DNA of 64,000 nt from Candidatus Hydrogenedentota bacterium. Lineage in GTDB: Bacteria; Hydrogenedentota; Hydrogenedentia; Hydrogenedentales; JAGMZX01. Below, piece by piece: positions 3,288 to 54,472 of the stretch (position 1 is its first letter; the number at the start of each line of letters is the position of its first letter). The translations under genes were made by a program, and so were the position numbers. The stretch is from the NCBI GenBank assembly GCA_029556545.1, contig JAKQEQ010000042.1, positions 62,001-126,000 of the forward strand. The letters are read 5' to 3'. Below the pieces are notes generated by a model. It was not told the DNA's origin. It was given only the letters and a program-made list of their open reading frames with translations, and searched no databases.

Positions 3288-3371
3288 GGAGGGTTAGCGT
3301 AATTGGTAACGCACCGGTCTTGAAAACCGGCGCCTTCGGGCTTGGGGGTTCGAGTCCCCCACCCTCCGCCA
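3288..3371 (+). tRNA. tRNA-Ser(UGA)
   Basis: A complete cloverleaf can be drawn. The acceptor stem is GGAGGGT/ACCCTCC, the D arm GCGT...ACGC, the anticodon stem CCGGT/ACCGG with loop CTTGAAA (anticodon UGA), a 13-nt variable arm with a GCC/GGC stem, the T arm GGGGG-TTCGAGT-CCCCC, discriminator G and an encoded CCA. Serine identity fits the long variable arm and G73. The 3' part, from the anticodon stem onward, is the integration target of the adjoining island, and the gene remains intact after insertion. Confidence 0.96.
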
Positions 3372-3373
3372 TC
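3315..3373 (+). repeat. left attachment site (attL), 59-bp direct repeat
   Basis: This copy starts in the anticodon stem of tRNA-Ser and runs two bases past the CCA. It is identical to 54414-54472. Left of the repeat the sequences differ (gcac versus ggga); right of it they differ again (actg versus cccg). The anticodon loop is a usual crossover site for tyrosine integrases. Confidence 0.93.
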
Positions 3374-7683: not shown

Positions 7684-7728
7684 TTCGGTTTTGGGCGCCA
7701 TTTATATAAAACATTGCGCTGCAATGCG

Positions 7729-8199: not shown

Positions 8200-8214
8200 G
8201 TGGATGTTATCGAT

Positions 8215-10698: not shown

Positions 10699-10704
10699 CC
10701 TGCT

Positions 10705-11673: not shown

Positions 11674-11783
11674 CGATAATCCCCGGCTGTGTCCCGCTTG
11701 ATGTTACCTTCTTTCCGATTCTACATCAACAATTCGCAACCTGAACCCCGATGTTCAAGCGGACCGGTGGTCCTGGCTTCTTG

Positions 11784-15106: not shown

Positions 15107-15152
15107 GCAATCTCCCCTCGGGCGGGCACGCATCCTGGTCCAACCTGACCAC

Positions 15153-15169
15153 GCAGGCATTCCGCCTGC
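15153..15169. repeat. inverted repeat in the hsdM leader
   Basis: GCAGGC-ATTCC-GCCTGC is a perfect 6-bp stem with a 5-nt loop between the candidate promoter and the hsdM start. It could form an RNA hairpin or be an operator. There is no T-run, so it is not a terminator. Confidence 0.4.
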
Positions 15170-25864: not shown

Positions 25865-27781
25865 TCACAGCACGCAGTGCACGAGCAGGTCACAGTGTTT
25901 CTCTCCCTTGCTCAGGCGCACGATGTCGCCCGGATTGAGTACTTGCGTCTCATCCTTCTGCAACTGATGCCCGTTTACCTTGGTTCCATTGGTGGAACCG
26001 AGGTCGCGGACACAATACTGCTTCTCGCCCCGGGAAGTGCGCATGGATTCTATCTCCACATGCCTTCGGGATATTCCCTCGCTGCCGAGCACCAGGTCGC
26101 AGCCGGATTCCCTGTCTTTCCCGATTACCCAGGCGGTCTTGGAATCGTCCAGCAAGAGCGACGCGCCCGCGCACGGCCCCTCGATGCACGTGAGCGCGAA
26201 CCTGCCAGGAACGGGCCGGACCACGGCAAGCGCGCGGGCGCGTTCCTCCACGTTGCCCGCGAGCACAACCTTCATTCTGTACCCCCCGACCTCGATGATA
26301 TCCCCTTGTTCGAGCCTCTTCTTCCGCTGCACCAATGCGCGGTTGACCGACAGGCCGCGCCCGCTGTGCAAGTCCTCGATGAACACGCCCGCGTCCGGCG
26401 TCCTGTCTTCGCGCGCGGGGGCGGCGTTCCAGTACACGATGGCGTGAAACCGGGCGACGCCCGCGCCCGTGATGCGTAAGTCGCAGGCGGGGTCGCTACC
26501 AATCAAAATGGGCGCGCTGTCGCTCGTGGGCGCGTGGCCTATGGACGAGACGAGTTGCACCATCGCGGACAAGCTCGTTTGGGGCGTCTCGGTTTTCCGC
26601 GCGAGTTCCGCATAATCGCTGGGTTCGATGGTCTGTCCGGAAGACCCGATCGAGCGCAGCAGGTCGTCGCGCACCGCCTGCACTTCCTGCGAAGGGTCGA
26701 TCTTGAACACCATCCAATAACCGCCCATGCGCAGCACGTCGCCCGACTGCAGAAACCGCTGAGCGATGCGCTCCCCATTGAAAACCGTGCCGTACGTGCT
26801 GGCATGGTCAACGAGCAGCAGCCCGCCGTCAATCCGCGCGACCGTTGCGTGTAGCGCGCTCATCCCCGCCCCCGGCAGCTTCACATGGCAGTTCTCATCC
26901 CTGCCCGCCAGGCACCAGGGACGCCGCATCTCGAAGTAGGCTGGATGCTCGTTCGCGGACAGCATGACAAAGCGCGGGTTCTCCTGGCCCTTTTCGGCGA
27001 GGAGAACGGGCCTGCCCTGAACGCTGGCTATGGGCTTGTCCTTATCGATAGAAGGCGCCGCGTCCGCTGCATGAAGCTTCCCGGCAAACTCCGCATCCTC
27101 AAGCGACACGTATGCTGTTTTCGCGGCCCGGTCGCCCTGGCTGGCGCGGCTGTTCAGGACCTTGCGCTGTTCTTCAAGGCTCTCTTCCAGGGCCATGTTT
27201 TTGGCCTCGGCCTCTGCACGTATGCGCTTGATGAGGTACTTGGCTTCCTCGCCTTCAACCATGCGCTGGAGATGTGTGAGCGAGAAGTCGCGCACCGCGA
27301 ATCCCAGCGGTCCGTAGATACGCCCCAATTGCTCATTGATGCTTGCTTCGACCCGCGCCTGCGCCACGCCGCCCACCATATCTTCCGGCCTGTACTTGCC
27401 GGCCTCACGGTGCAGCGCCCGGCACACTTTTTCGCTCACGTCCAACGAAAAGTCGGACAGGGACACCGACAAGGCGTCCCGCAGTAGAAACCGGTGCAGC
27501 GCGCTCGCGCTCGCGACATCGAGAGCCACGTGTGACTCGATTTCAAAGCTGTTGGCGGGCGTCGGCACCTCACCGACGAATTCCGTACGCATCTGGACCA
27601 GCAATTCGGTCCAGTACAGCATTACTTCGCCCGCGCGGTCTTGCGCGTTTAGGGAGAAGGCCCCCGGTCCCGGACCATAAACCTGGCCGCTCGCAATGCC
27701 ATAGGCGGCCACTTGGGAAGGCAAAGTCAATTGCCGGCCTTGGGCCGGGATAACACTGCAGATGTCCGCGGCTGGAAGCAT
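25865..27781 (-). CDS. SPFH-like protein with three FHA domains
   Basis: 638 residues with a GGAGAG ribosome site. Residues 1-215 look like an SPFH/band-7 domain ending in a charged coiled coil (about 172-212). Three FHA domains follow: FHA1 (about 288-358; GRDEN, STYGTVFN), FHA2 (about 424-506; IGSDPACD, SGRGLSVN) and FHA3 (about 549-636; IGKD, SRRH, GSTNGTKVN). Only FHA3 has the full canonical set for phosphothreonine binding. FHA domains read Thr phosphorylation, so the neighbouring kinases are likely upstream. SPFH parts form membrane-associated oligomers. Confidence 0.85.
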   Translation of the reverse strand: MLPAADICSVIPAQGRQLTLPSQVAAYGIASGQVYGPGPGAFSLNAQDRAGEVMLYWTELLVQMRTEFVGEVPTPANSFEIESHVALDVASASALHRFLLRDALSVSLSDFSLDVSEKVCRALHREAGKYRPEDMVGGVAQARVEASINEQLGRIYGPLGFAVRDFSLTHLQRMVEGEEAKYLIKRIRAEAEAKNMALEESLEEQRKVLNSRASQGDRAAKTAYVSLEDAEFAGKLHAADAAPSIDKDKPIASVQGRPVLLAEKGQENPRFVMLSANEHPAYFEMRRPWCLAGRDENCHVKLPGAGMSALHATVARIDGGLLLVDHASTYGTVFNGERIAQRFLQSGDVLRMGGYWMVFKIDPSQEVQAVRDDLLRSIGSSGQTIEPSDYAELARKTETPQTSLSAMVQLVSSIGHAPTSDSAPILIGSDPACDLRITGAGVARFHAIVYWNAAPAREDRTPDAGVFIEDLHSGRGLSVNRALVQRKKRLEQGDIIEVGGYRMKVVLAGNVEERARALAVVRPVPGRFALTCIEGPCAGASLLLDDSKTAWVIGKDRESGCDLVLGSEGISRRHVEIESMRTSRGEKQYCVRDLGSTNGTKVNGHQLQKDETQVLNPGDIVRLSKGEKHCDLLVHCVL

Positions 27782-27939: not shown

Positions 27940-30642
27940 TTAGACGCGGTGCGAACGGTGTGCTGCCCGCTCCTTCGCGGTGGCGGGGCGCAGCGCAGCT
28001 TTCCCATTCACTTCCTCTCTGCGGAATTTCCCCTCGTCCTGTAACAAATCAAATACGAAGAGCACTTCGTCCACGGCTATGGTGGTGCGCAATGTCGTCT
28101 CCACGGCGTCCTGGACCTTGCTTGTCGTCACGAATTCAAATGCGTCGAGATATTCGACCACCCACTTCCGAATCGCTTCCATGCGCTGATGAACAGTCTC
28201 TGGTTCGAGGCTTTCCGCGAATTTGCGCACGCCGGTGGCCATGCCCGGCAGGGCCGGTCTGCGCACGCGCCACGTGTCGCCGCTTGGCTCGACCAGGATG
28301 AGCATCTCCGTCGGCAGGGCGACCGCCTTGACCTCCTTCACCCAGCCTTGGGGGGCAATGGCCACCCAGTACGCGTCTGGGATTTCTCCCTGGGGCGCTG
28401 TGTCCTTGAGCCAGGCCCTGACCGTGTTCTGGGCGATGCTCAAGTGCTTTGCGTTGCATGGCATGAATACGGGGCCAAGATTCTCCATAAAATCCACGGG
28501 CGTCAAGACGGCCAATACGACGATGACGGGACGCCCCCATAGTCCCGACAGCCGGAACACCCGCACATAGTTCACCGCATTCAGGTCATTCAGCCAGTTC
28601 TCGGGGGGATGCCATCTCACGGCCTGCGCCAGGCCATTGGGCAGCCGCCATTCGCTCTCCATGTGTTGTTGCAGTGCGGCCGAGACCTGACTCCGGTCAA
28701 GTTCGACGAGACTGCGAACACGCGGATGCAGAAGGGAGATGTCCCGGCGTGCGGACGTAAGCCGAGGTACACGCGGACGATCCTGGGCTGCTCGACCAAT
28801 GTTCACGGCCATTGCCGATTCGATGTCGTTCAGCATGCCCCGGTATTGCACGAGCCTGGTCCGCGTTGCCACATTCATGTTCTGAATGCCGCGATCTTCC
28901 AGCGATTTCAGCCACTCCGTGTCTTTTTCCGTATTCGACCGCGTCGTGTCCGGGCAATACATGGTCTGCTCATGCCACAGGCCGCACGTTTCACGTGAAC
29001 ACAGTTGCCGCCCGCAGTCGGCACAGACACCATGCCACGGGTTTTCAGCCGTGATGAAGGCGCCGCAGTGGCCGCATGCCTGCGGTTGACCTGTCGGCGA
29101 CGCCTCCGCCAGGCAAGCATCACAAAGACCACGAAACCAACCGTCATCGCGGGGGCAGATGGAACGCTTCTCATTGCGATGCCGTCCCTGAGGATCCGCA
29201 CACTCCTTGCTCAGCCCATGCCGAATCGGGTGTCCATTGTTGCAGCAGTGTTCCCAACAGAGTCCCTGTCCAGCCCCCCGGCAATGGGAACATACCATGT
29301 TCCCGCACTCTGCCACTCTACACGGCGCAAGCTGCACCCCATCGGCCACTGGATGCCCCGCGGAACAGGTGATCGGCGTATCTGCCGCACAGTGAACGTC
29401 ACACAACTGTTGGGCGTAACCGCGGTCGTGCGGGCAAATGACCCGTCCACAAAACACGCCAGCGTCCAATCCGCCACAAAAGGCGATAGGAGCGCTATCA
29501 ACGCGATGGCCGTTGCCGCAGAGGTAGGCATCCCCCGGATCGCCATACAGGACATATGCCAAGCCGAGCAATGTCCCGGCATCAAGCGGGTTCCCCTCGC
29601 TACCGCGCAACGCCCGACGCGCGATCCGAAGGGACTCCCCAACGGTTCGTCCCTCACCCAAGGCCTTGTAGAAGTCCACCATGGCAAGCGGGCAGCGTTG
29701 AAGCGGCAACTCCACCGTGGTACAGATGTAATGGCGAATGCCTGCCCTTAATGCGGCATCAGCCATGCCATACAATCGCGTTGTTTCCGGCCATTCGGCT
29801 TCCCAGCCGCACGTTACGCCCGACTCGCAACTGGTGGAGAAAAGAAGTAATGGCGGAAGCGCACCTGCATCAAAGGATCGCAGCAGGTCCTCGGCGGTGA
29901 ACACGCTTTCAGGGTCGCCACTGATTACAAAGCCGCTCTTCTCCGGATTTTCCTCGTCATACTTGTAGTGAGAGCAAATGTTCACCGCCTCAAAAACACG
30001 CATGGCGGACTGTATATCGGAAATGGCGAGCGTTTGGGAAACCACACCGGAATCCAAATTAAAACTTCCAGCCAAATCGACGGTGGTCCAGGAAGTCGCA
30101 AGATCATTCACCGGCCCTTCAGGAAGCTGCATACCGGGATCGATCATTGTATGCACGCGATAGGGCAGACTGGCACCAAGTCTTTGGCCTTTGGCCGGCC
30201 CTGGCCGTTTCGGATTGAGCAACTCCTTTCCCGTCGCATATTCGAATGCCAGGAAGTCATTCCACAAATAGATTCCGTCAAACGGCACCCCGTTCAGAAG
30301 GGGGTCTACCCTGAAGAGAATCTGTCGTATCGAGCGGTCGTTGCGCAGTCTGTCCAGAAGCTCCGCCGGCATCAGATGCGTGCGCAATCGTTCGCTGATG
30401 GGTTGAAGGACAGTCTGAATCCACGCTGTGAGGTCCGGCAGCGGTTCCCAATGCTGCGCTGAGACAATTCCTTCCCCTAGACACTCGATAAACGTCCTGG
30501 AATCGTCTAACAGTCCCTCATAGCCGCACACGCGCGGTATAAACAAAGCCGGTAGTGTCTTTCCTTGGTCTGTCCGGATTTCCGCGAGCAATTCCACGCG
30601 ATCGTCGGGGAAGACGCGATATTGAAGAACAAGCGTCGCCAT
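27940..30642 (-). CDS. CHAT (caspase-like) protease with a large zinc-binding cysteine region
   Basis: 900 residues. The N-terminal about 390 residues carry a CHAT fold: His225 in NICSHYKYDE and Cys272 in FSTSCESG, with the usual 'DLL..FDAG' helix between them. Residues about 395-560 contain at least 20 Cys/His in repeated C-G-H / C-x2-C patterns (SAGHPVADG, NNGHPIRHG), resembling several RING- or ribbon-like zinc modules. The C-terminal about 300 residues are unassigned. The ATG shares one base with the stop of the anti-sigma-like gene, so production is coupled. CHAT proteases are frequent effectors in bacterial conflict systems; cleavage of the anti-sigma protein is a plausible idea. Confidence 0.82.
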   Translation of the reverse strand: MATLVLQYRVFPDDRVELLAEIRTDQGKTLPALFIPRVCGYEGLLDDSRTFIECLGEGIVSAQHWEPLPDLTAWIQTVLQPISERLRTHLMPAELLDRLRNDRSIRQILFRVDPLLNGVPFDGIYLWNDFLAFEYATGKELLNPKRPGPAKGQRLGASLPYRVHTMIDPGMQLPEGPVNDLATSWTTVDLAGSFNLDSGVVSQTLAISDIQSAMRVFEAVNICSHYKYDEENPEKSGFVISGDPESVFTAEDLLRSFDAGALPPLLLFSTSCESGVTCGWEAEWPETTRLYGMADAALRAGIRHYICTTVELPLQRCPLAMVDFYKALGEGRTVGESLRIARRALRGSEGNPLDAGTLLGLAYVLYGDPGDAYLCGNGHRVDSAPIAFCGGLDAGVFCGRVICPHDRGYAQQLCDVHCAADTPITCSAGHPVADGVQLAPCRVAECGNMVCSHCRGAGQGLCWEHCCNNGHPIRHGLSKECADPQGRHRNEKRSICPRDDGWFRGLCDACLAEASPTGQPQACGHCGAFITAENPWHGVCADCGRQLCSRETCGLWHEQTMYCPDTTRSNTEKDTEWLKSLEDRGIQNMNVATRTRLVQYRGMLNDIESAMAVNIGRAAQDRPRVPRLTSARRDISLLHPRVRSLVELDRSQVSAALQQHMESEWRLPNGLAQAVRWHPPENWLNDLNAVNYVRVFRLSGLWGRPVIVVLAVLTPVDFMENLGPVFMPCNAKHLSIAQNTVRAWLKDTAPQGEIPDAYWVAIAPQGWVKEVKAVALPTEMLILVEPSGDTWRVRRPALPGMATGVRKFAESLEPETVHQRMEAIRKWVVEYLDAFEFVTTSKVQDAVETTLRTTIAVDEVLFVFDLLQDEGKFRREEVNGKAALRPATAKERAAHRSHRV

Positions 30643-31400
30643 CAGTAGTCCGTCTCCTTCTGCTCCTCAGTTGCATCAGGAGATGACCCGAGCGCGATGA
30701 CGTACTCTGCGTCGGGACAGACTATTTTTAGCAGGCCGTCGGAGCAGGGCGAAAGCACTGCCGGTTGCCTGGTCTGAGGCATGCCGATACTGCGCTCGCG
30801 TAGAGCGGTGCCTTCGGGAATCAACTGCTTGAATTGTACACGTCCTCCCGTTTTCCCCTCCGGAAGCGTCACCTGGACCTCATACCTGTCGCCTGGGAGG
30901 GGCCGAACCGATATCACGGTGCCATCGGGCGCTTGGATATCTTGCGACTTCCCAGCTTTTTCCACATCCGCCTGCTTTTCTCCCGGCTTCTTCAACGTCC
31001 TTGGGCCGAGGGTATAGGCCGGCGCGAGTCGTAGAAGACTCCATTCTTGCCTCAGGAATGGGGTCAGCAATTCCTCGCCAACACGAACTACAATGGCGAA
31101 GACCATCATCTTCTTATCCATCATGTTCTTCAGGATTTCCGCCCCTTTGGCCCTCGCCTTCTCCAAACGTGATGGTTGACCAGTCATCGCCAATGCACTG
31201 CGAATCGCCTCAAGTTCCCTTTGTGTCTCCTCACTGACAGCAATCATTTCCATGACCGCGTCCCGCTCGTCGGGCTCCAGCAAGTCCAACTCATAGGCCC
31301 ATAGCAAGTCCTCGGGAACCCGCGGGACATGACTTGCCGGATCGTCCAAAGCCCGCGCTAATCTCTCGGAAATCTCACGAATATCTTCTTCTCGTGTCAT
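30642..31400 (-). CDS. anti-sigma-like protein
   Basis: 252 residues. The N-terminal about 75 residues have the helical pattern of anti-sigma domains (LLWAYELDLLEPDERDAVME), without the HxxxCxxC zinc motif. A weakly hydrophobic stretch (about 95-120) may touch the membrane, and the C-terminal half is beta-rich. It lies 96 bp after the sigma-like gene and overlaps the CHAT gene by one base. The position directly after a sigma-like gene is the main support for the call. It could hold the sigma factor inactive until signalling or CHAT cleavage. Confidence 0.6.
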   Translation of the reverse strand: MTREEDIREISERLARALDDPASHVPRVPEDLLWAYELDLLEPDERDAVMEMIAVSEETQRELEAIRSALAMTGQPSRLEKARAKGAEILKNMMDKKMMVFAIVVRVGEELLTPFLRQEWSLLRLAPAYTLGPRTLKKPGEKQADVEKAGKSQDIQAPDGTVISVRPLPGDRYEVQVTLPEGKTGGRVQFKQLIPEGTALRERSIGMPQTRQPAVLSPCSDGLLKIVCPDAEYVIALGSSPDATEEQKETDY

Positions 31401-31496: not shown

Positions 31497-32957
31497 TTAT
31501 TCTTCGTCACCTGGAAAGCCATCACCTCCGCCACGCAGTATGTCCCTTCCCTCTTCCAGACGTCTGTGCGCGGTAGACTGCGAGAACCCCATCCGTCCAC
31601 CGATTTCAGCCTCCGTGCGCACCCACTGCGAATGCTTTCTGAAACTGAGGTACTTCGCTCTCTCAATGCGCAATGCTTCCAGTCTGTTCTGCGCCGCCTT
31701 CCTTCGCTTGAAGGCGTGCATATACGCAAGTTCCTTGATTGTGAAGGCCAAACCCTTGGCTCTCGCTGCTATTGCCACCTTACCGTGGCAGCCGCCCTCT
31801 TCTGAACACGCTAACTCCCGCTGCGAAAGCAAGAGTGCCGCCTTCTCCTTCGTGATGTGTTCCTGTTCATCCAGTTGCTCATGGGTTAGCGCTAGCGCCT
31901 TTACCCCCAGGTCATCAATCAGGTTCTCTTTGGCCTCCCGGCTTCCGCCCCATTCATCTTCCAATAACGCCCTGCGAGCCCCTTCCTCCAAAGCCTGCGC
32001 CTCATCGAAATGACTCTTGGCTTCAGGAAGTTCTTCTTCGGACAACTTCTTCCACGCGCAGGCCGCCTTCACATATTCCTGATGGATACGGCGGAGATCG
32101 TCTTGTGATAATCTTTCAATCGTCTCGCGGAACATATCGTTTGTGTCGAGGTAGGCCTTGAGGTAGAGTTCCCATGCCATTCGCGCCTCGGACGGAAGAC
32201 TGCGCAAGATATGCGTTATCGTCTCTGTTAGGTTATCTGCTCGCTCAGCCGGCTCTCCAGCAGAGCAGGTAGTCTCCGATGAAATCGATGTCTGCATGAA
32301 TTCATCTTCTTGGGGAGGATTTTCCAATTTGCGAATAGCGTCGAGAAACCTACGCAAGATGGTTGTTTTCAAGAACCTGTCAAAGGTCTTACCCTTCGCC
32401 GGGTCGTAAGCGCGAGCACATGCCGCGAAACCTGATCCACGAAAAACGGCGTTTTCGGCGTGGTCTATAACCGTGGTACAATACAAATCGACCACGTGGT
32501 GTTTGTCCAAACGATCCCGGAATCTGTACAACAGCCGGGCATGCGCGGTTCGTTCTATCCACGACTGTGTCCGTAACCAGTAGTAATCCTCGATTTCGCG
32601 CTTGCGCTCCGGCGTACACGATGCGGACCGGTACTCCGCAACGTATTCACAATCGGAAACATACAATTCCTTCAAGACCTGTTGGGAGATATCCTTTGCT
32701 CGCGCATTCAGCCATTCTTTGAAGGCGTCGGGGTCTTCGGGGATATCCGCGAATTCCGTCTGCAGTTGCGCTGTAAGATGCTGGGATTTCTGCAGTTGCT
32801 TCCGCACCAACAAGAGCACAGCATCCAGAGAGGCGTATCTGAGTTTGAGGCAATCGCGCAATCTGGCCTCGACCGCGCTTAGAAGCAGACTCTGCAGTTG
32901 TTCCACCGTGGCGGGCTTTTTCGTTGACCCGACGCCACCGATTTCATGTATCGACAT
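31497..32957 (-). CDS. divergent sigma-70-like factor
   Basis: From ATG 32957 the product has 486 residues. A region-2-like segment (ARAYDPAKGKTFDRFLKTT, then LRRFLDAIRKLE) fits the core-binding/-10 helix of sigma-70 proteins. The extreme C-terminus has an HTH (TEAEIGGRMGFSQSTAHRR) in the place of region 4. About 250 helical residues lie between the two, much longer than in ECF factors. An upstream in-frame start at 33350 would add 131 residues of non-protein-like sequence overlapping the next gene, so it was rejected; ATG 33164 is a less likely alternative. It is first in the sigma/anti-sigma/CHAT run. Confidence 0.65.
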   Translation of the reverse strand: MSIHEIGGVGSTKKPATVEQLQSLLLSAVEARLRDCLKLRYASLDAVLLLVRKQLQKSQHLTAQLQTEFADIPEDPDAFKEWLNARAKDISQQVLKELYVSDCEYVAEYRSASCTPERKREIEDYYWLRTQSWIERTAHARLLYRFRDRLDKHHVVDLYCTTVIDHAENAVFRGSGFAACARAYDPAKGKTFDRFLKTTILRRFLDAIRKLENPPQEDEFMQTSISSETTCSAGEPAERADNLTETITHILRSLPSEARMAWELYLKAYLDTNDMFRETIERLSQDDLRRIHQEYVKAACAWKKLSEEELPEAKSHFDEAQALEEGARRALLEDEWGGSREAKENLIDDLGVKALALTHEQLDEQEHITKEKAALLLSQRELACSEEGGCHGKVAIAARAKGLAFTIKELAYMHAFKRRKAAQNRLEALRIERAKYLSFRKHSQWVRTEAEIGGRMGFSQSTAHRRLEEGRDILRGGGDGFPGDEE

Positions 32958-33171: not shown

Positions 33172-34029
33172 TTACTCCGGCAATCCTTCCAGGCGCAAGG
33201 CAAAACGCATGATGTAGGCGTTGTAGCAGATGGCGAAGCCGACGGCGACAAGGAACAGCAACAGGGCAAACCAGGAGGACAGGGCCGCGCCGAGCAGGAG
33301 ATACGCGAGCAGCGCGTCGGCGGCGCTGTAGATGACGAGGGTCGCCGCATTCGACCGGTTCGTGTCCTTGCGGACCATGGCGCGGATGAAGCCGATGGTG
33401 AAGACCGGCAGCAACAGCACGGCGATCAGCCAGGCGAAGAATCGCTTCGGAGCGTTGATTCGCGCGATTTCTTCCCGGACGCGGCCCGTGTTCAGAATGC
33501 CGGGCGCGGTCTCTTTGGTGTACCGCCGGTCGAGCAGGAGCGCGCCGGAGGCCACATCGAGTAGGCGTACTTCGAGATCCAAGGCCGCTTCGCCTCCAAA
33601 GGACTCGAACGCGCGCACCGTGCCGAAGAGTACGCCCTCGACGCCCATCGCATGTCCCGTCGCACGCGCCGCTTCCGGCTCGCCGACCCCGGTTTCGCGC
33701 AAGTCCAGGAAGGCCCGGGCCTTCTCAGTCAGCGTCCGGTCGCGCAGGTCCAGGATGCCCGACGACGAAACAGCGGACCGTAGTTGATTCGTCACGTACC
33801 CGGAGGAATCGCCCGCGAACGGCAGCAAGGCCACCGTGCCGAGGCCGTCGCGCGCGTCGCGCAGGTCCCGCAGCATGACCGGGACGGCTTCGTCCGCCAC
33901 TTGGACGCGCAGCGGACTGATCTCCGGCTTCTTCGGACCGACGGCGTCCCACGCCTGCGACCCCAGATAGAACGCGAGCAGCACCGTCCCCGCCCGGCTC
34001 GCCAGGTTCCACAGCCCCCGTATCAACAT
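33172..34029 (-). CDS. membrane protein with a CsgG/LpoB-like domain
   Basis: 285 residues. An N-terminal hydrophobic helix (about 10-27) is followed by a soluble domain with the pattern of the CsgG/TolB-N fold: VALLPFAGDS at the start, a helix, GHAMGVEGVLFGTVR in the middle and LDLEVRLLDVASGALL near the end. The C-terminal third has about three transmembrane helices. It is the last gene of the ESCRT-like operon, 46 bp after the AAA+ gene, so it may be the membrane anchor or receptor for that machine. The fold call is from pattern only. Confidence 0.6.
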   Translation of the reverse strand: MLIRGLWNLASRAGTVLLAFYLGSQAWDAVGPKKPEISPLRVQVADEAVPVMLRDLRDARDGLGTVALLPFAGDSSGYVTNQLRSAVSSSGILDLRDRTLTEKARAFLDLRETGVGEPEAARATGHAMGVEGVLFGTVRAFESFGGEAALDLEVRLLDVASGALLLDRRYTKETAPGILNTGRVREEIARINAPKRFFAWLIAVLLLPVFTIGFIRAMVRKDTNRSNAATLVIYSAADALLAYLLLGAALSSWFALLLFLVAVGFAICYNAYIMRFALRLEGLPE

Positions 34030-34075
34030 GGCCTATTCCTCCACGGGCGGAACGCCCATGCCACGCTTCTTGTGA

Positions 34076-35209
34076 TCAGTCGTCGCCATAATCGTCGCTC
34101 GAGGCGGCGTGGCCCGCGCGCCAGGCGTCAAACTCCGCCAGGTGTTCGGGCGTGACCGAAGGCCGCACCTTCCCCAGCGCCGCCTCGAAGTCCTCCTGCG
34201 TCACGTCTTCATCCTGGCCGCTGGCGAGTTGCCGATTCTTCGCCGAACGCTTGGCCCGGTCGCATAGCGACGCCATGTCCGCGCCGCTGAAGCGGTCCGT
34301 CCGCGCGGCGATGGCGGCATAATCCACGTCGTCCGCCACAGGGACGCCTTCCATGTTCAGGCGCACGATGGCCTCGCGCGCGGGCGCGTCCGGCGGCCCG
34401 ACGTAGATGTGGTCGCCCAAACGGCCCGGCCGCAGCACCGCCGGGTCGAGCAGCCACGGCTTATTCGTCGCGGCCAGCACCAGCAGGCAGTTCTTCGTCT
34501 CGACGAGGCCGTCCGTCAGCGTCAGGAACTGGGTCACCATGCCGATCTTCCGGTTGCCGCGCCGCGCGAGGATGGCGTCCACTTCATCGAGGAAGATGAC
34601 CGCACGATCGTGTTTGCGGGCCTCGTCAAAGAGCCGCTGCATGTTCTTCTCGGTTTCCCCGACGTACTTGTCCTTGACCTGCGAGGCGTTCACGTTAAAG
34701 AAGGCCGCGTCCAGTTCGCCCGCGATGGCCTTGGCGATGTACGTCTTGCCGTTGCCCGGCGGACCGTACATGAGCACGCCGCCGCCCTTGCGCAGTCTGA
34801 ACCGCTCATGAACCTCCGGGTGCAGGAACGGCTCGATGACCTTCTCGCGCAACTCGACCTTCACGTCTTCAAGCCCCGCCACGTCGATCAGCTTCTCGCG
34901 CGGCCGCTCCTTGAGTTCCCACTGCGATTGCGACACGTCCTCGTCGGGGCCGGCTTTTTCCTTCGCCCGTTGCAGGCCCTCCCGCGACTGCGCCCGCGCC
35001 TTCTCCTTCAGTTGCTCAGCGATATCGAGCAGTTCGTAGGCGTCCTCGACGTACTGCTCCGCCACCTTGCCCTCGCTCTGCTCCGCCAGCTTGAGCCCGA
35101 ACTCGGCCGCCTTCGCCGTGTGGAAGAACGCTTTGCCGAAATGCTTCTCGCACAATGCCGCCTCGGCGGCAGCCTCGTGCTCCCGCTTTTTGTCGGCATT
35201 GAAACTCAT
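34076..35209 (-). CDS. Vps4/katanin-like AAA+ ATPase with N-terminal MIT-like domain
   Basis: 377 residues. Residues 6-75 form a three-helix pattern like the MIT domain (helices near 10-24, 26-45 and 49-71). A linker (76-105) leads to an AAA+ domain with Walker A GPPGNGKT (149-156), Walker B VIFLDE (204-209), and AATNKPWLLDPA (246-257), close to the ATNxPWxLD signature of the Vps4/katanin clade. In eukaryotes and archaea this ATPase pulls ESCRT-III subunits through its pore after MIT binds their C-termini. Here the gene overlaps the Snf7-like gene by ATGA, which makes that partnership likely. Confidence 0.85.
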   Translation of the reverse strand: MSFNADKKREHEAAAEAALCEKHFGKAFFHTAKAAEFGLKLAEQSEGKVAEQYVEDAYELLDIAEQLKEKARAQSREGLQRAKEKAGPDEDVSQSQWELKERPREKLIDVAGLEDVKVELREKVIEPFLHPEVHERFRLRKGGGVLMYGPPGNGKTYIAKAIAGELDAAFFNVNASQVKDKYVGETEKNMQRLFDEARKHDRAVIFLDEVDAILARRGNRKIGMVTQFLTLTDGLVETKNCLLVLAATNKPWLLDPAVLRPGRLGDHIYVGPPDAPAREAIVRLNMEGVPVADDVDYAAIAARTDRFSGADMASLCDRAKRSAKNRQLASGQDEDVTQEDFEAALGKVRPSVTPEHLAEFDAWRAGHAASSDDYGDD

Positions 35210-35853
35210 TTCTCATCCTCCATCAGTCTCCGAAGCCGCGCGCGGCCCTCGCCAATCTTCTCCGCCAGACCGCCCTCCGCCTCGGTAGCCTTGCGCGCAC
35301 CCGTCCGCTCGCCGATGTCCGCCGCCACCTCGTCCTCCAACAGCTTCTCCATTTCGTCCAGCGACGGCACCACGTCGGTCATCTTCGTCTCGACCCCGGC
35401 CATCTCCTTGCCGTAAGCGCGCTCCCAAATCTTGTCGAGGTCCACCTGCTCACCCAGCTTGTCCTCGACCGCGCCCAGCACGTCTTCGACCCGCTCGGGG
35501 TCGATGGCGATGACGGCATCGAGCGATTGCAGCGCGTTCGTGAAGTCCTGGTCCGTCTGCGACAACTCCATCTTCGCGATCAGTTGCTCGAAGACCCAAC
35601 GTTTCATGTCCAGCTTCGTCATCAGAATTTCACAGGCGCGGCAGGATTGCAGGCTCCGCTGGCTTGCCCCCTTCTGGCCGTCCTTGAGGTATCGGCGCGC
35701 CTCGCTCCACGCGGCGTCCCGCTCCGCCTTGAGCTTCTGGATGCGCTCCTTCACCGTGTCAACCGCGCCTTCCGCCTGGCGCTTGGCCCGGCGCTGCTTT
35801 ACCCGAAGGTCCTTCTCCCGCTGCGCCTTCGACTTGAACAGGTCCTCGAACAT
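35206..35853 (-). CDS. Snf7/ESCRT-III-like coiled-coil protein (second gene)
   Basis: From ATG 35853 (GAGGAGG site) the product has 215 residues; a longer frame from 35919 has no ribosome site. It begins MFEDLFKSK, a short amphipathic N-terminus like that of CHMP proteins, then a long basic helical hairpin (about 10-110), an acidic helical second half and a C-terminal helix ending RLRRLMEDEK. Size, charge switch from basic to acidic and the terminal RLxxL resemble ESCRT-III proteins, whose C-terminal MIM helices bind MIT domains. The match to the MIM consensus is partial. It is coupled to the MIT-AAA+ gene. Confidence 0.72.
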   Translation of the reverse strand: MFEDLFKSKAQREKDLRVKQRRAKRQAEGAVDTVKERIQKLKAERDAAWSEARRYLKDGQKGASQRSLQSCRACEILMTKLDMKRWVFEQLIAKMELSQTDQDFTNALQSLDAVIAIDPERVEDVLGAVEDKLGEQVDLDKIWERAYGKEMAGVETKMTDVVPSLDEMEKLLEDEVAADIGERTGARKATEAEGGLAEKIGEGRARLRRLMEDEK

Positions 35854-35931
35854 GGGCTGTGCCTCCTCTTTGCTCGCTTGCCGCCACGCGTGTTCCCGCT
35901 GTCGGGTCATCCTGACCACTGCGCCAACGCC

Positions 35932-36540
35932 CTACTCCTCTTCCGTCTCCAACTGCTTCAGCCACTTCGCCGTATCCTCGGAGAGCGCCTCCTTGGCGGG
36001 CGGCTCCACGACGTCCATCGCCTCGGGACGAACCGTCTCCGTCACGGGCTTGCGCTCGCGCTGGTACTGCACGCGTTTCAGGTCGCGCGCCGCCTTGTCC
36101 TCGTCTTTCAGGTCGGCAAGGGCGCCATCGAGATCGACCGCGATGTCGTCCAGGACTTCCTGACCCACCCCCCGCTTCCGGGCCGCTTCGAGTTCATCGA
36201 GCTTCGCCAGCGCCGTATTTACGTTGCTGATCCGGCTGACGAGGATGTCCTGGCGGCCCTTCTGGCCGTCAAGTTCTTCTCGCGCGAGTTCGATCTGCTC
36301 GATGATGACGCGCTTGCCCTCGCCCTTGGTTTGATCGAATTCCTGCTTGAGTTTGAGCGCGCGCTGTTCGAGGACATGGATGTCCGTCTTCAGATTGTCC
36401 AGTTCGTCGTTCAGCGTCCGGCGGAGTCCCAACAGCGCGCGGCGCTGCGCCTCGAGCCGCGCCTGCTCCGACTTGCGCAAGCCCAGAAACTCCGCCAACT
36501 TGGCCAATACGGCCCTGACCAGGTCCGGTAACGTGTTCAT
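35932..36540 (-). CDS. Snf7/PspA-like coiled-coil protein (first gene of ESCRT-like operon)
   Basis: 202 residues after a GGAGGGG ribosome site. The N-terminus is an amphipathic helix (MNTLPDLVRAVLAKLAEFLG), followed by a long helical hairpin (about 22-125), a linker with Pro and acidic residues, and a C-terminal helix EDTAKWLKQLETEEE. This order (membrane-inserting helix, coiled coil, acidic tail with a WLxxL-type terminal helix) is that of PspA/Vipp1 and ESCRT-III polymers. It lacks a transmembrane segment. It precedes the second Snf7-like gene by 78 bp. Confidence 0.7.
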   Translation of the reverse strand: MNTLPDLVRAVLAKLAEFLGLRKSEQARLEAQRRALLGLRRTLNDELDNLKTDIHVLEQRALKLKQEFDQTKGEGKRVIIEQIELAREELDGQKGRQDILVSRISNVNTALAKLDELEAARKRGVGQEVLDDIAVDLDGALADLKDEDKAARDLKRVQYQRERKPVTETVRPEAMDVVEPPAKEALSEDTAKWLKQLETEEE

Positions 36541-36872: not shown

Positions 36873-39362
36873 TTACGACAATTCCCCGAACGTTTTCTCT
36901 GCCCACTTGAGCACGCCCTGCAAGTCGCTGCGGCCGGTACGGGCGATTTCTCCGCGCAGCACCAGCATCGCGCGGCGCGCCTCCTGGATGGCTTGCTCCC
37001 GCTGAGGCGTCCCGAGCAAGAGCTTCGCGCGATAGACTTGCGCCCAAGCCAAATCGCCGCGGAGTTCCGTCCGGCCCGCCGCCACCAGCCGCTCGTGGAT
37101 CGCGATGCATCGCTCGTAATGCCCGAGTGCCTCCCGGCTCTCGCCCAGGGTATCCAGCGCCACGCCTTTGCTCATGTACGCCGTGGCGAGGTTCGGCTCG
37201 AGTTCTGTCCGGCCCGCCGCCACCAGCCGCTCGCGTATTGCGATGCACCGGTCGTAAACCCCGAGTGCCTCCCGGCCCTCGCCCAGGGTATCCAGCGCCG
37301 CGGCCTTGTTCAGGTACGCCGTGGCGAGGCCCGGCTCGAGTTCCGTCCGGCCCGCAGAAACCAGCCGTTCGCGGAGCCCGATGCACCGGTCGTGGTACGC
37401 GAGCGCCTCCCGCCCCTCGCCCTGGGTATTTAGCGCCACGCCCTTGTTCAGGTACGCCTGGGCGAGGTCCGGCTCGAGTTCCGTGCGGCCCGCCAAAACC
37501 AGCCGTTCGCGGAGCCCGATGCACCGGTCGTGGTACGCGAGCGCCTCCCGCCCCTCGCCTAGGGTGTCCAGCGCCACGGCCTTGTTCAGGTACGCCGTGG
37601 CGAGGTCCGGCTCGAGTTCCGTCCGGCCCGCCGAAACCAGTCGCTCGTACAACGCGATGCACCGGTCGTGGTACGCGAGCGCCTCCCGCCCCTGACCCAG
37701 GGAATCCAGCGCCACGCCCTTGTTCATGTACGCCGTGGCGAGGTCCGGTTCGAGTTCCGTCCGGCCCGCCGCCACCAGCCGCTCGTACAGCGCGATGCAC
37801 CGGTCGTGGTACGCGAGCGCCTCCCGCCCCTGACCCAGGGAATCCAGCGCCACGCCCTTGCTCAGGTACGCCGTGGCGAGGTCCGGCTCGAGTTCCGTCC
37901 GGCCCGCAGAAACCAGCCGCTCGTGCAGCGCGATGCACCGGTCGTGGTACGCGAGCGCTGCGCCAGAATCGCTTAGGTTGTCGTGAAGAAACGCCTTGTT
38001 CAAACATAGGATGGCAAAGTCGTCTTCGAGATCCTGGCGACCCTCCCCTATCAGACGCTGATAAATCTGCGCCGCCTCCTCGTACGCCGCGAGGTCCGCG
38101 ACCGACTGCGCCACACGCGGACCCGTCCGCTCGAGCATCAGCCGCTCCGCTTCGCGCGGGTCTCGACCCGCCGCCGTCAGCGCACAAACGAGAAACGTCC
38201 GCGGGTCCTCCCACTGCACGCCGACTGTCGTCCAGCGGTCCGTCTCCGCCCAGCCCTCCTTCGGCGGACGCGGGAACCCAGGCAGGTCCCGGGGATACGG
38301 CTGCCCCGCGCAGGCCGCGTATACATCCCGCAAGGCATCCGCCGCATCGAGCAGTGTACCCCACCGTTCCCCCGGCTCCTGCCGGAAGCAGCGGCGCAGC
38401 ACCTCGGCCACCGCCGGCGGCATCACAGGCAGGCCCGGCCGCGCCGGGCCCGTTACCAGATACCGGTCCAGAAGGGCATTCGCTTCCATGCCCCACTCCC
38501 AGGTCACGGCGCCGTGGAACAGCGTCAACACGCTCAGACCCCAGCTCCACACGTCCGTACCATGGTCCAGCGCCACCCCCCGACGCTGTTCCGGCGAACA
38601 GAACGCCGGCGTCAGACCGCCGAAGCTCAGCAGCGGCTTGTGAGAAGCATCTGTCGGTGCCCCGTCCGGCGTCTCGCCCGCCTGCGCCCGCGCCCGAGCC
38701 AAACCAAAATCCGTCACCAGCGCGCGGCCGTCCGGAGTCATCAGGAAGTTCCCCGGCTTCACGTCCCGATGCACCAAGCCCCACACGTGCGCTGCATGCA
38801 GCCCCCACGCCGTCTGGATGGACACGTCGAGCATCTGCTCGAGCGTCGTCAGCCGGTCCTCGTCTATCCACTGCTGTAACGAACTGCCCCCCACCAGATC
38901 CGCGAAGATGCCAATGGTGTCTCCGAACGCCCGGAAGAACCGGCACTTGACCACGTGCGGGTGTTCCGGCAAGGCGATCCAGCTCTGCAGTTCCCTGAAA
39001 AAGGCCCGATGATGTTTCGTGTCCCGGACAAGGTCTGGCCGGACCCGTTTCACGGCAAATCGGTCGCCCGTCTTCGTGTTCTTCACGCAGTAGACCGCGC
39101 CCATGCCCCCGCGCCCGAGGATGCCGTCCACCGTGAATATTTCGTCCAGCGCCGTCCCCGGCGCCCAGCCCTCGGCGCCGTCCTCCTGCTGCATGGTGTC
39201 CCGGTCCTTGCTCCACGCAGCCGAGTCGATAGGCTTGACCCGTTCCCGCGACTCCGCTACCGCAGACGCCACCCGCGTCCCGGACGGCTGGGCTGCCGGT
39301 TCCGCTGGTGTTTCCTTCGGTCCTTTGCCGAACAACCGCCTGAAAATGCCCCCGGACGCCAT
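36873..39362 (-). CDS. Ser/Thr protein kinase with 8 near-identical 46-residue TPR units (paralogue B)
   Basis: 829 residues, beginning MASGGIFRRLFGKGPKETPA. The kinase (ending near residue 340) keeps the GRGGMGAVYCVKN loop, the catalytic Lys, HRDVKPGN and DFG. It matches paralogue A closely and paralogue C even more so; B and C share the N-terminus and about 50 bp of leader before the ATG. Residues 437-758 hold seven full 46-residue units and 759-829 the capping unit. Compared with A the unit consensus differs (ALAYHDRCIALYER), showing homogenisation within each gene. It lies just upstream of the ESCRT-like operon on the same strand, but 332 bp and a separate promoter intervene. Confidence 0.9.
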   Translation of the reverse strand: MASGGIFRRLFGKGPKETPAEPAAQPSGTRVASAVAESRERVKPIDSAAWSKDRDTMQQEDGAEGWAPGTALDEIFTVDGILGRGGMGAVYCVKNTKTGDRFAVKRVRPDLVRDTKHHRAFFRELQSWIALPEHPHVVKCRFFRAFGDTIGIFADLVGGSSLQQWIDEDRLTTLEQMLDVSIQTAWGLHAAHVWGLVHRDVKPGNFLMTPDGRALVTDFGLARARAQAGETPDGAPTDASHKPLLSFGGLTPAFCSPEQRRGVALDHGTDVWSWGLSVLTLFHGAVTWEWGMEANALLDRYLVTGPARPGLPVMPPAVAEVLRRCFRQEPGERWGTLLDAADALRDVYAACAGQPYPRDLPGFPRPPKEGWAETDRWTTVGVQWEDPRTFLVCALTAAGRDPREAERLMLERTGPRVAQSVADLAAYEEAAQIYQRLIGEGRQDLEDDFAILCLNKAFLHDNLSDSGAALAYHDRCIALHERLVSAGRTELEPDLATAYLSKGVALDSLGQGREALAYHDRCIALYERLVAAGRTELEPDLATAYMNKGVALDSLGQGREALAYHDRCIALYERLVSAGRTELEPDLATAYLNKAVALDTLGEGREALAYHDRCIGLRERLVLAGRTELEPDLAQAYLNKGVALNTQGEGREALAYHDRCIGLRERLVSAGRTELEPGLATAYLNKAAALDTLGEGREALGVYDRCIAIRERLVAAGRTELEPNLATAYMSKGVALDTLGESREALGHYERCIAIHERLVAAGRTELRGDLAWAQVYRAKLLLGTPQREQAIQEARRAMLVLRGEIARTGRSDLQGVLKWAEKTFGELS
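37089..38054 (-). repeat. tandem 138-bp units encoding TPRs in kinase paralogue B
   Basis: Seven full 138-bp units encode residues 437-758. Several adjacent units differ at only a few positions, with the recurrent blocks CGGTCGTGGTACGCGAGCG and GGCTCGAGTTCCGTCCGG. Confidence 0.9.
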
Positions 39363-42431: not shown

Positions 42432-42668
42432 CTTTGTATTCCTTCTCCCCATCCGTGGGTGTCTCATGGTGTTACGGGTGTCAGGTCTTGATTTCATAGT
42501 CTTGTCATGCCTTTTCTTGTGCCGGTCAGCGGCGGTCTCGACACGTTGTCCCTTGGCGCCGCAGGCCACGCTTGCCTTCATCTCCTCTATACGCGGGGAA
42601 CGTCGATGTAATTCGCCTCGACCGTTTCACCTCGCCATACGGAGTCTCTTCGCGCTTGACGGGCATCC

Positions 42669-50208: not shown

Positions 50209-52413
50209 ATGGCGTCCGGGGGCATTTTCAGACGGTTGTTCGGTAAAGGACCGAAGGAAACACCAGCAAGACCGGCAGCCCAGCCGTCTAGGACGCGGGT
50301 GGTGTCTGCGGCAGCGAAATCGCGGGAACGGGTCAAGCCCATCGAGTCGGCTGCGTTCGCCAAGGGCGGGACCGGGCCACGAGAGGACGGCGCCGAAGGT
50401 TGGGCGCCGGGGATGCCACTGGACGAGGTATTCACGGTGGACGGCATCCTCGGGCGCGGGGGCATGGGTGCGGTCTACTGCGTGAAGAATGCGAAGACGG
50501 AGGACCGGTTTGCCGTGAAACGGGTCCGGCCCGACCTTGTCCGGGACACGGAACATCATCGGGCCTTCTTCAAGGAACTGCAGAGCTGGATTGCCTTTCC
50601 GGAACACCCGCACGTGGTCAAGTGCCGGTTCTTCCGGGCATTCGGGGACACCATCGGCATCTTTGCGGACTTCGTCGAGGGCGGGTCGCTGCAACAGTGG
50701 ATAGACGAGGGCAGGCTGACGACGCTCGAGCAGATGCTCGACGTGTCCATCCAGACGGCGTGGGGGCTGCACGCGGCGCATGCGTGGAGCCTGACGCACC
50801 GGGACGTAAAGCCGGGCAATTTCCTGATGACGCGGGACGGGCGCGCACTGGTGACGGATTTCGGGCTGGCGCGGGCGCGGGCGCAAGCGGGCGAGTCGGC
50901 GGATGGGGCAACGTCAGGCGCCTCACATGAACCGCTGGTGAGCTTCGGCGGGCTGACGCCGGCCTTCTGTTCGCCGGAGCAGCGGCGAGGTGCACCCTTG
51001 GACCACCGGACGGACGTGTGGAGTTGGGGTGTCACCCTGTTAACGCTGTTCAATGGTGCCGTGACCTGGGAGTCAGGCGCGCAAGCAAACGCTGTCCTGG
51101 ACCGGTATCTGGAGGCGGGTCCAGCGCGGCCGGGTTTGCCGCCGATGCCCCCCGCCGTGGCCGAAGTATTGCGCGGGTGTTTCCGGCAAGAGCCGGGGGA
51201 ACGGTGGGGAACCCTTTTGGAAGCCGCGGACGCCTTGCGGGACGTGTATGCGGACTGTGTGGGGCAGGTGTATACCCGCGACCTTCCGGGGTTCCCGCGC
51301 CCGCCGAAAGAGGGCTGGACCGAATCGGACCGGTGGACGACAACGGGCGTGCAGTGGGCCGACCCGCGGACTTGGATCGAGCGGGCGCTGCGCGCGGCGG
51401 GCCGGAACCCGCGGGAAGCGCACAGCCTAATGCTGGAGCGGACCGGGCCGCGCGTGGCGCAGTCAGTAGCGGACCTGGCGGCGTACGAGGAGGCGGCGCG
51501 CCTATACGAGGGGCTGATGGCGGCGGGCCACACAGAGATCGAAGCGGACTACGCTGTACTGTGTCAGAACAAGGCGTTTCTTCATGAAAACCTTGGCGAC
51601 TCAGGCGCAGCGCTGGCGTGTAAAGACCGGTGCATCGCGATCCGCGAGTGGCTGGTGGCGGCGGGCCGGACGGAACTCGAGCCGGACCTCGCCAAGGCGT
51701 ACCTGAACAAGGGCGTGGCGCTGTGGTCCCTGGGCGCGGGCCGGGAGGCGCTCGGGGTTTACGACCGGTGCATCGCCTTGTACGAGCGGCTGGTGGCGGC
51801 GGGCCGGACGGAACTCGAGCCGGACCTCGCCACGGCGTACCTGAACAAGGCCGTGGCGCTTAGGTCCCTGGGCGCGGGCCGGGAGGCGCTCGGGCTTTAC
51901 GACCGGTGCATCGCGCTGTACGAGCGGCTGGTGGCGGCGGGCCGGACGGAACTTGAGCCGGACCTCGCAAGTGCTTACCTGAACAAGGGCGTGGCGCTGC
52001 AGTCCCTGGGACAGGGCCGGGAGGCGCTCGGGGTTTACGACCGGTGCATCGAAATCCGCGAGCGGCTGGTGGCGGCGGGCCGGACGGAACTTGAGCCGGA
52101 ACTCGCCACGGCGTACCTGAACAAGGCCGTGGCGCTTAGGTCCCTGGGTCAAGGCCGGGAGGCGCTCGGGCTTTACGACCGGTGCATCGCGATCCGCGAG
52201 CGGCTGGTGGCGGCGGGCCGCACGGAACTGTGCGGCGATTTGGCGTGGGTACAGGTCTATCGTGCGCAACTCCTGCTCGATACGCCGCAACGCAAGCAGG
52301 CCATCCACGAAGCGCGTGGCGCCATGCAGGTGCTCCGCGAGGAAATCGCCCGCACGGGCCGAGGCGACCTGCAAGGCGTCCTCCAGTGGGCGGAGAAGAC
52401 ATTCGCGGGCTGA
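50209..52413 (+). CDS. Ser/Thr protein kinase with 6 near-identical 46-residue TPR units (paralogue C)
   Basis: 734 residues with a GGAGG ribosome site. The N-terminus (MASGGIFRRLFGKGPKETPA) is identical to that of paralogue B. The kinase carries GRGGMGAVYCVKN, the catalytic Lys, HRDVKPGN and DFG. The repeats start at residue 436 as in A and B: five full 46-residue units (436-665) and a capping unit (666-734). This is the only kinase of the island on the + strand, so copies A/B and C are inverted relative to each other. It is divergent from the exported-protein operon, with 273 bp between. Its target is unknown. Confidence 0.9.
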   Translation: MASGGIFRRLFGKGPKETPARPAAQPSRTRVVSAAAKSRERVKPIESAAFAKGGTGPREDGAEGWAPGMPLDEVFTVDGILGRGGMGAVYCVKNAKTEDRFAVKRVRPDLVRDTEHHRAFFKELQSWIAFPEHPHVVKCRFFRAFGDTIGIFADFVEGGSLQQWIDEGRLTTLEQMLDVSIQTAWGLHAAHAWSLTHRDVKPGNFLMTRDGRALVTDFGLARARAQAGESADGATSGASHEPLVSFGGLTPAFCSPEQRRGAPLDHRTDVWSWGVTLLTLFNGAVTWESGAQANAVLDRYLEAGPARPGLPPMPPAVAEVLRGCFRQEPGERWGTLLEAADALRDVYADCVGQVYTRDLPGFPRPPKEGWTESDRWTTTGVQWADPRTWIERALRAAGRNPREAHSLMLERTGPRVAQSVADLAAYEEAARLYEGLMAAGHTEIEADYAVLCQNKAFLHENLGDSGAALACKDRCIAIREWLVAAGRTELEPDLAKAYLNKGVALWSLGAGREALGVYDRCIALYERLVAAGRTELEPDLATAYLNKAVALRSLGAGREALGLYDRCIALYERLVAAGRTELEPDLASAYLNKGVALQSLGQGREALGVYDRCIEIRERLVAAGRTELEPELATAYLNKAVALRSLGQGREALGLYDRCIAIRERLVAAGRTELCGDLAWVQVYRAQLLLDTPQRKQAIHEARGAMQVLREEIARTGRGDLQGVLQWAEKTFAG
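51514..52203 (+). repeat. tandem 138-bp units encoding TPRs in kinase paralogue C
   Basis: Five full 138-bp units with only a few differences each encode residues 436-665. They carry the same core blocks as the units of paralogues A and B, in inverse orientation. Confidence 0.9.
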
Positions 52414-53253: not shown

Positions 53254-54357
53254 ATGAAAACGAGCCGCTATAACGGGGGTTACATCCGCCCAACTCGCCA
53301 CGGCAGCTTCATTGCGGAGGTCAATTACGCATACAAACGCCACAAGAAGACCTGCAAGAACGTGGACGACGCCCGCGCATGGATAGACGGTGTCCAGATC
53401 GAACTCGCCAAGCGCACCCGGCCCCTCGACCCCTGGGACCTTCGAGACGCCCGCATCGCCCGAGACATCCTTCCCGAAGGCGTTACGCTCGCCGACGCCG
53501 CACGCTTCTACCAAGCCCACCACCGCGGAGACCCCGGTCTCACCATAGAGACCGTCATCCAACGCCACCTGGACGAGAAACACAAACGACGTCTCCGCGA
53601 AAAGACCCTCACCATACTCACACAACGCCTACGTCTGTTGCAGACTGCCCTGGGCGCGCGGCCAGTGGCAGCCGTCACACCCGACGAACTGCGCGCTTGG
53701 CTCGACGCCCGTGGCCTCTACGGTCGCACCAGAAACCACTATCGCGCCATGCTCCATGATCTCTTCCGATTCGCGGTGCTCTCCGGCTACCGCGAGACAA
53801 ACCCTGTCGCCGCCATCGCCACTGTCCATATAGATGATACGCAGCCGGGCATACTCACCGTGGACCAGACCAAAGCCCTGCTCCGCGCTGCCGAAACCCG
53901 CGATCCGGACTGTATCCCGTACCTTGCCATTGGTCTTTTCGCCGGCATCCGTCCCGCGGAACTCGACCGCTTGACATGGCGCGAATGTGGGCCAACGGAA
54001 ATACACGTCACCGGTGCTATAGCCAAGACACGACGCCACCGCTATGTTACCATTGCCCCCAATTTGGCCGCGTGGCTCAACCGCTACCGCGGCTTTGACG
54101 AAACCGCCGTACGCCCCGTGAACTTCCGCGCGCGATTCAGGCAACTGCGCGCGGACGCCGACGCCGACCCGTGGCCTCACGATGCGCTCCGTCACAGCTT
54201 CGCCTCCTACCACTTGGCCCACCACCGGGATGCCGCCCTCACCGCCCACGAACTCGGCCACCGCAACCCCGACCTCCTCTATCGCCATTACCGGGCCCTC
54301 GTCACCCCCGCCGCAGCCGCCCGTTATTGGTCCCTTACCCCCGATCCCGAAGGATAA
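53254..54357 (+). CDS. int: tyrosine recombinase (island integrase)
   Basis: 367 residues. A core-binding helical domain (about 78-185) is followed by the catalytic domain with Arg233 (AGIRPAEL), Lys258 (AKTRRHR), the HDALRHS box (309-315), His336 (ELGHRNP) and the nucleophile Tyr346 (YRHYRAL). It catalyses integration and excision at the 59-bp att core. The gene ends 57 bp from the right core and reads toward it. It appears intact, so the island may still be mobile. No excisionase was recognised nearby. Confidence 0.93.
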   Translation: MKTSRYNGGYIRPTRHGSFIAEVNYAYKRHKKTCKNVDDARAWIDGVQIELAKRTRPLDPWDLRDARIARDILPEGVTLADAARFYQAHHRGDPGLTIETVIQRHLDEKHKRRLREKTLTILTQRLRLLQTALGARPVAAVTPDELRAWLDARGLYGRTRNHYRAMLHDLFRFAVLSGYRETNPVAAIATVHIDDTQPGILTVDQTKALLRAAETRDPDCIPYLAIGLFAGIRPAELDRLTWRECGPTEIHVTGAIAKTRRHRYVTIAPNLAAWLNRYRGFDETAVRPVNFRARFRQLRADADADPWPHDALRHSFASYHLAHHRDAALTAHELGHRNPDLLYRHYRALVTPAAAARYWSLTPDPEG

Positions 54358-54413: not shown

Positions 54414-54472
54414 CGGTCTTGAAAACCGGCGCCTTCGGGCTTGGGGGTTCGAGTCCCCCACCCTCCGCCATC
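54414..54472 (+). repeat. right attachment site (attR), 59-bp direct repeat
   Basis: Identical over 59 bp to 3315-3373. It carries the 3' half of tRNA-Ser from the anticodon stem through CCA, but the upstream acceptor strand and D arm are missing, so it is not a tRNA gene. Confidence 0.93.

Follow-up and report, generated by a model that had tools for sequence, protein, structure and literature searches.

A set of genes homologous to the ESCRT (endosomal sorting complexes required for transport) loci of euryarchaea was found in a 64,000-nt stretch of DNA (hereafter the window) of Candidatus Hydrogenedentota bacterium (GCA_029556545.1, JAKQEQ010000042.1, positions 62,001-126,000). Its core is a single minus-strand block of four genes, A, B, C and D, at window positions 33172-36540, in which the start of C overlaps the stop of B, as had been described from the letters alone. 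With an ESCRT-III protein (B), a Vps4-like ATPase that has an MIT-type N-terminus (C) and the conserved partners A, D and domain X1, the set is homologous both to the euryarchaeal loci and to fuller operons of Planctomycetota. In our opinion, the block is very probably a bacterial ESCRT system acting on a membrane. The sequence-only reading had proposed a bacterial ESCRT operon with a dedicated ATPase of the MIT-Vps4 type on a tRNA-inserted island, and this proposal is upheld by profiles, predicted structure, gene order and archaeal homology.

ESCRT-III protein B and Vps4-like ATPase C

Searched with a profile of five relatives of B that were not picked by their similarity to Snf7, the whole of PDB gave yeast Snf7 as its best sequence match (E 2.7e-5); Asgard ESCRT-IIIB ranked fifth (0.016), with only noise below that. 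A profile of 25 B proteins found CHMP2A (1e-4), CHMP3 (5.8e-4) and Asgard ESCRT-IIIB (7e-4) in the same database. All 25 proteins match Pfam Snf7, and these matches are not independent for the 20 that came from Snf7 searches. The copy in genome G050 lies slightly above the Pfam cut-off, and the true ESCRT-III proteins of Sulfolobus lie below it. In the AlphaFold2 model of B (pLDDT 78) the helices follow each other as in ESCRT-III, and the Snf7 core is superimposed with 0.9 A over 79 residues. The top 13 Foldseek matches of the model in PDB are CdvB, CdvB2 or IST1, all of them ESCRT-III; with all E-values at or above 0.001, it is the specificity of this ranking and not the height of the scores that serves as evidence. 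B is, then, an ESCRT-III protein of the Snf7 type rather than the PspA type, as its first description as Snf7-like suggested.

That description also took A for a coiled coil of Snf7/PspA type. Pfam PspA_IM30 at E 0.1 matched none of 25 B and none of 20 A proteins. The superfamily fold is nevertheless common to B and bacterial PspA/Vipp1, with a VIA Z of 9.7 over the hairpin; values of 8 to 10 are frequent among helical bundles. To our knowledge, PspA does not normally come with a paired MIT ATPase.

C has the P-loop GPPGNGKT and the motif FLDEVD and matches Pfam AAA (1.9e-36), AAA_lid_3 and, just above the cut-off, Vps4_C (1.9e-4). A six-sequence alignment of the N-termini found no MIT domain in PDB, and a profile of 30 N-termini of the family was needed, which matches the entire three-helix MIT of human Vps4B (E 5.5e-6), as well as SKD1, Vps4A, calpain-7 and, weakly, Sulfolobus Vps4. 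TPR consensus proteins outrank MIT in this search solely by summing many repeats, each of about 10 bits and two helices.

Two-domain Cdc48 proteins lead the PDB ranking of C. This is an artefact of their two domains, which biases the ranking, and a tree of AAA sequences (42 rows) was used instead; it separates C from Cdc48. In the tree, the first ATPase of the planctomycete operons (AAA1), a Chloroflexota protein, and a protein of genome G002 (L029_C being among the members) are united with archaeal Vps4 in a single clade (99/99), the second planctomycete ATPase (AAA2) and the window type form separate clades, and all of these are split from Cdc48/FtsH at 97/93. The long-branched IetA falls inside the Vps4-like set together with the window C. 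With Vps4_C above the cut-off, the MIT profile of the family and this position apart from Cdc48/FtsH, C is a Vps4-like ATPase with an MIT-type N-terminus, in agreement with what had been read from its sequence.

Conserved partners, gene order and distribution

A Pfam Snf7 search of 392 genomes of Planctomycetota gave matches in 45, and a C-type ATPase lies within about 1.5 kb of 23 of the 30 best matches. In the phylum of the window (68 genomes), all four top matches (the three strongest and the window B) adjoin a C-type ATPase, compared with none of 16 matches at chance level. The B profile was positive in 56 of the 392 sampled Planctomycetota (about 14%). Both X1 and A are also present in 24 of the 29 planctomycete loci containing B and a C-type ATPase, and the full order in this phylum is X1 - A - X3 - AAA1 - B - AAA2 - SPFH-like - D - kinase. 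The SPFH-like protein of locus L181 (7513-9411) has an N-terminus recognized as such by eye and a long C-terminal part, and has no Pfam match.

In the phylum of the window, B was found by profile in 3 of 68 genomes and, additionally, in G002, where the locus also contains D and a true Band_7 (SPFH) protein with a zinc ribbon; G058 has only C, at a contig end. B, C and a caspase stand together in a metagenome-assembled genome (MAG) of Phycisphaeraceae. Just upstream of them (L003, 1-1990), a reverse transcriptase (RVT_1 4.4e-17) was observed, and the Asn-rich, variable-looking coding sequence there resembles a diversity-generating retroelement.

A scan of genome contigs with the window B gave one relative. 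No relatives of B were found in viral contigs, the two best AAA relatives there being Cdc48-like, and plasmids gave no matches with the window B and two with the planctomycete B. A plasmid of the archaeon Thermococcus peptonophilus carries a block of X1 (8.5e-17), A (1.6e-5), a kinase, Vps4 (1.7e-109), PP2C, B (9.2e-22) and another coiled coil; its X1 homologue makes up the C-terminal portion of a coiled-coil protein of 607 aa. In a Chlorohelix plasmid (Chloroflexota), genes of an A-like protein, Vps4 and a kinase are together and B is elsewhere. The survey of gene order in other genomes, suggested as a check, thereby found B with a C-type ATPase in 29 planctomycete loci and homologues of the set in the archaeal-type Thermococcus locus.

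The system has conserved partners in A, D and the X1 domain. A joins the A family of the planctomycete operons (E 1.7e-39, with a profile that had already absorbed A). Its AlphaFold2 model has helices at residues 4-70, 74-123, 127-163 and 188-201, a long hairpin and a separate C-terminal helix, which is compatible with ESCRT-III. The best ESCRT-III sequence match of A is CHMP2A (E 0.18), so the Snf7/PspA likeness ascribed to it earlier is invisible in the sequence. When the three coiled-coil families were compared profile to profile, the links were weak, and it is therefore not claimed as shown that A and X3 are ESCRT-III. X3 (L181, 3915-4529, and other genes) is a further coiled-coil family, the third that is conserved in the operon of planctomycetes, and has no Pfam or PDB match beyond generic ones. 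D belongs to the D family of the same operons; as to the CsgG-like fold proposed for it, one weak PDB match, to XCC0632 (E 0.068), was obtained.

Mobile island and protease-fused adaptor

The block is carried by an island of about 51 kb, which has a tRNA-Ser site, flanking 59-bp repeats, the first base of which is within the anticodon arm of the tRNA, and a tyrosine integrase (Table 1), so the insertion into a tRNA gene recognized earlier is confirmed. In genome G040, where an empty site was looked for, the contig ends at that place. Genes of type I restriction (HsdR, S, M) and an IetAS pair are on the same island (4226-15160). Of the neighbours of the block that had been named, the kinase upstream of A and the CHAT protease were recovered by Pfam.

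Table 1. Features of the island and the ESCRT block in window coordinates
Feature	Position	Strand	Description
tRNA-Ser (TGA)	3288..3371	+	island integration site
att repeat, left	3315..3373	+	59-bp perfect repeat
IetS	8215-10698		same island, part of IetAS pair
IetA	10705-11673		same island, part of IetAS pair
Protein with three FHA domains	25865..27781	-	Pfam FHA 3.8e-47; SPFH profile weak, E about 1e-3
CHAT protease, X1 domain at C-terminus	27940..30642	-	Pfam CHAT 5.2e-12; X1 profile E 5.5e-6
X1 (adaptor-type) region of CHAT protein	28099..28416	-	residues 743-848
252-aa protein	30642..31400	-	possible anti-sigma partner, guessed from position
Sigma-factor-like protein	31497..32957	-	downstream of D; starts MSIHEIGG; sub-threshold Pfam matches to Sigma70_r2 and r4
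D	33172..34029	-	membrane protein, possible CsgG-like middle domain, 285 aa
C	34076..35209	-	377 aa; Vps4-like AAA ATPase, N-terminal domain of MIT type
MIT-type three-helix domain of C	34985..35209	-	about residues 1-75; from profile of 30 N-termini
B	35206..35847	-	ESCRT-III (Snf7-type) protein, 213 aa, starts MFEDLFKSK; 237 aa from alternative GTG start
A	35932..36540	-	202 aa; coiled coil, probably the second ESCRT-III-like subunit
Ser/Thr kinase with TPR repeats	36873..39362	-	directly upstream of A; Pfam Pkinase 3.3e-31; fits operon-kinase profile
Tyrosine integrase of island	53254..54357	+	Pfam Phage_integrase 4.1e-8; just inside right repeat
att repeat, right	54414..54472	+	59-bp perfect repeat

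In the window, X1, a presumed winged-helix adaptor, makes up the C-terminal part of the CHAT protein. The same domain was found at the C-termini of subtilisins (S8; L029, L024) of G002 (3.6e-63) and G040 (4.9e-6), of a kinase of G050 (L025, 5.4e-57) and, weakly (0.017), in a papain-like (C1) protease of G040 (L027); in G040 and the Phycisphaeraceae MAG, the block is followed by caspases. That the catalytic part is exchanged while the adaptor stays the same is the most unusual trait of the island version.

Several side observations concern these loci. In G040 (L027 5900-6406 and L028 1-629, small overlapping contigs), C is followed by a second AAA protein with the P-loop GPKGNGKT and LFDNAD in the Walker B region, which, judging from these motifs, is probably inactive as an ATPase. 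Two haloarchaeal plasmids (L219, L220) have Vps4 and a coiled coil close to M48 metalloprotease genes. The island of the window has three TPR-repeat kinases that are close relatives of each other (22750-25746, 36873-39362 and 50209-52413), and the gene adjoining the second of them (39447-42581) encodes a secreted-looking protein of 1044 aa with long Gly-Glu repeats. No Pfam family was found in the 252-aa protein.

Relation to known systems and possible functions

A published survey restricts ESCRT systems to archaea and eukaryotes. A close counterpart is the archaeal Main clade (Makarova et al. 2024, PMC10936438), which includes Vps4 with MIT, ESCRT-III, the adaptor arCOG09748, a Ser/Thr kinase and a PP2C phosphatase and is proposed to sort phosphorylated proteins. 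The block on the Thermococcus plasmid has the composition described for this clade. The bacterial type has these components in common with it, the likeness of X1 proteins to arCOG09748 (coiled coil, globular domain and C-terminal winged helix) being one of layout, not of an arCOG search. The bacterial type differs in its host, in often having an additional Vps4-like ATPase (AAA2) and the coiled coil X3, in D and the SPFH-like protein and, in the lineage of the window, in the fusion of the adaptor domain to proteases or a kinase. With eukaryotic ESCRT-III/Vps4 it shares the Snf7 core hairpin, the MIT-type domain, the Vps4_C helix and, in some planctomycete B proteins, MIM1 (MIT-interacting motif 1); identity is low, and neither a link to ubiquitin nor ESCRT-I/II was seen. 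The strict MIM1 ends 5 of 25 B proteins, for example EDVVGNRLQALK (0.04 expected by shuffling), and these five are mutual relatives.

Bacterial genes of Vps4-like ATPases were also described by Ravi et al. (2024, PMC11237479), in loci where snf7 is said to be displaced by a TPR/6TM protein, whereas the loci of the window and planctomycetes keep ESCRT-III beside the ATPase. The IetAS defence system consists of an AAA ATPase and a subtilisin and has no ESCRT-III. C matches the IetA model at 1.7e-31, compared with 1.3e-72 for the real IetA, so these are distinct proteins; with C only a distant match and the CHAT protein without a PADLOC match, an assignment of the block as an IetAS system was rejected. 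No paper on Vps4 with ESCRT-III in Planctomycetota was found in the open-access literature (subscription papers and preprints were outside the search). Relative to that literature, the system is known in kind, and its bacterial host domain and protease-fused adaptor are new.

The following course of events may be suggested for the system. A signal would be relayed by the Ser/Thr kinase and read by the FHA proteins, and A and B would build filaments on the cytoplasmic membrane, at its inner face and close to D. The MIT domain of C would bind the C-terminal helices of A and B, and ATP-driven extraction of subunits by C would lead to constriction or sealing of the membrane. Since an X1-type adaptor is fused to the CHAT protease, filament assembly would also position or activate proteolysis. 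On the island, beside restriction and IetAS genes, the system could plausibly respond to envelope damage or phage, with repair coming first or with cell death driven by the protease.

A number of points weigh against this interpretation. Membrane action, phosphorylation and defence are roles that we infer. As a single sequence, the N-terminus of C shows no MIT in Pfam or PDB, and TPR proteins match the first two helices of the MIT profile. The AAA tree was composed without eukaryotic, TACK and katanin sequences; as AAA1 joins archaeal Vps4 in it and AAA2 and the window type stand separately, C would represent a paralogous lineage of Vps4 type neighbouring archaeal Vps4, with AAA1 as the direct orthologue. 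The X1 match in the CHAT protein spans only 108 of 264 positions. The tail of the window B has only the RLxxL part of MIM1, so that, of the MIT-binding motifs expected in the tails, a partial one is present and the strict one is absent from this copy. A gave generic coiled coils by both sequence and fold in PDB, with no specific ESCRT-III match; of its likeness to ESCRT-III, the predicted helical hairpin is what stands.

As to the use of the system, housekeeping remodelling or repair of membranes (division, vesicles, envelope stress) by a counterpart of archaeal ESCRT that is merely borne by an island is a serious candidate, to which we give somewhat less than an even chance. It agrees with the presence of the fuller operon on large contigs in many Planctomycetota and with the sorting role proposed for the archaeal Main type, whereas a patchy distribution (56/392) and, in the lineage of the window, the place on a defence-rich island and the coupling to CHAT, S8, C1 and caspase proteases speak against it.

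A system of anti-phage defence or programmed death, of the kind known in multicellular bacteria and with ESCRT-like parts as a sensor or scaffold for a protease effector, is a possibility we hold tentatively. The CHAT-X1 fusion, the kinase, the FHA protein, nearby IetAS and type I restriction, and the reverse transcriptase and caspase adjoining the Phycisphaeraceae copy speak for such a system; against it, CHAT, D and the FHA proteins match no PADLOC model, C resembles IetA as a general relative only, and a paper on these systems (PMC7159879) is silent on ESCRT, Snf7 and Vps4. A defence use of the island operon, suggested by its genomic context, is conceivable to a similar degree, and we consider defence or cell death as likely as housekeeping repair or vesicle formation.

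It is very improbable that the block consists of coiled-coil adaptors and a generic AAA unfoldase, similar to Snf7 by convergence of coiled coils, as the generic matches of A and X3 and the weak profile links between the coiled-coil families might suggest, since the top PDB sequence matches and the top 13 folds of B are all ESCRT-III and not other coiled coils, and B, Vps4 and X1 co-occur in bacteria and in the Thermococcus locus.

Returning to the ESCRT interpretation, it may be proposed, with some reserve, that MIT-Vps4 ESCRT is a regular bacterial machine of Planctomycetota, plasmids and islands, which in the lineage of the window has turned into a mobile module of immunity or cell death, in which the adaptor bears an exchangeable catalytic part, either a kinase or a protease (CHAT, subtilisin, probably papain-like). 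An operon present in about 14% of the sampled Planctomycetota and homologous to the euryarchaeal type contradicts the view that ESCRT is confined to archaea and eukaryotes, and bears on the age and spread of ESCRT. The fusion of the adaptor to a protease on a defence island is an additional surprise. Planctomycetes are known for internal membranes and for protein uptake by a mechanism that is still sought (PMC6524685), and the operon therefore provides a candidate machine that can be tested genetically.

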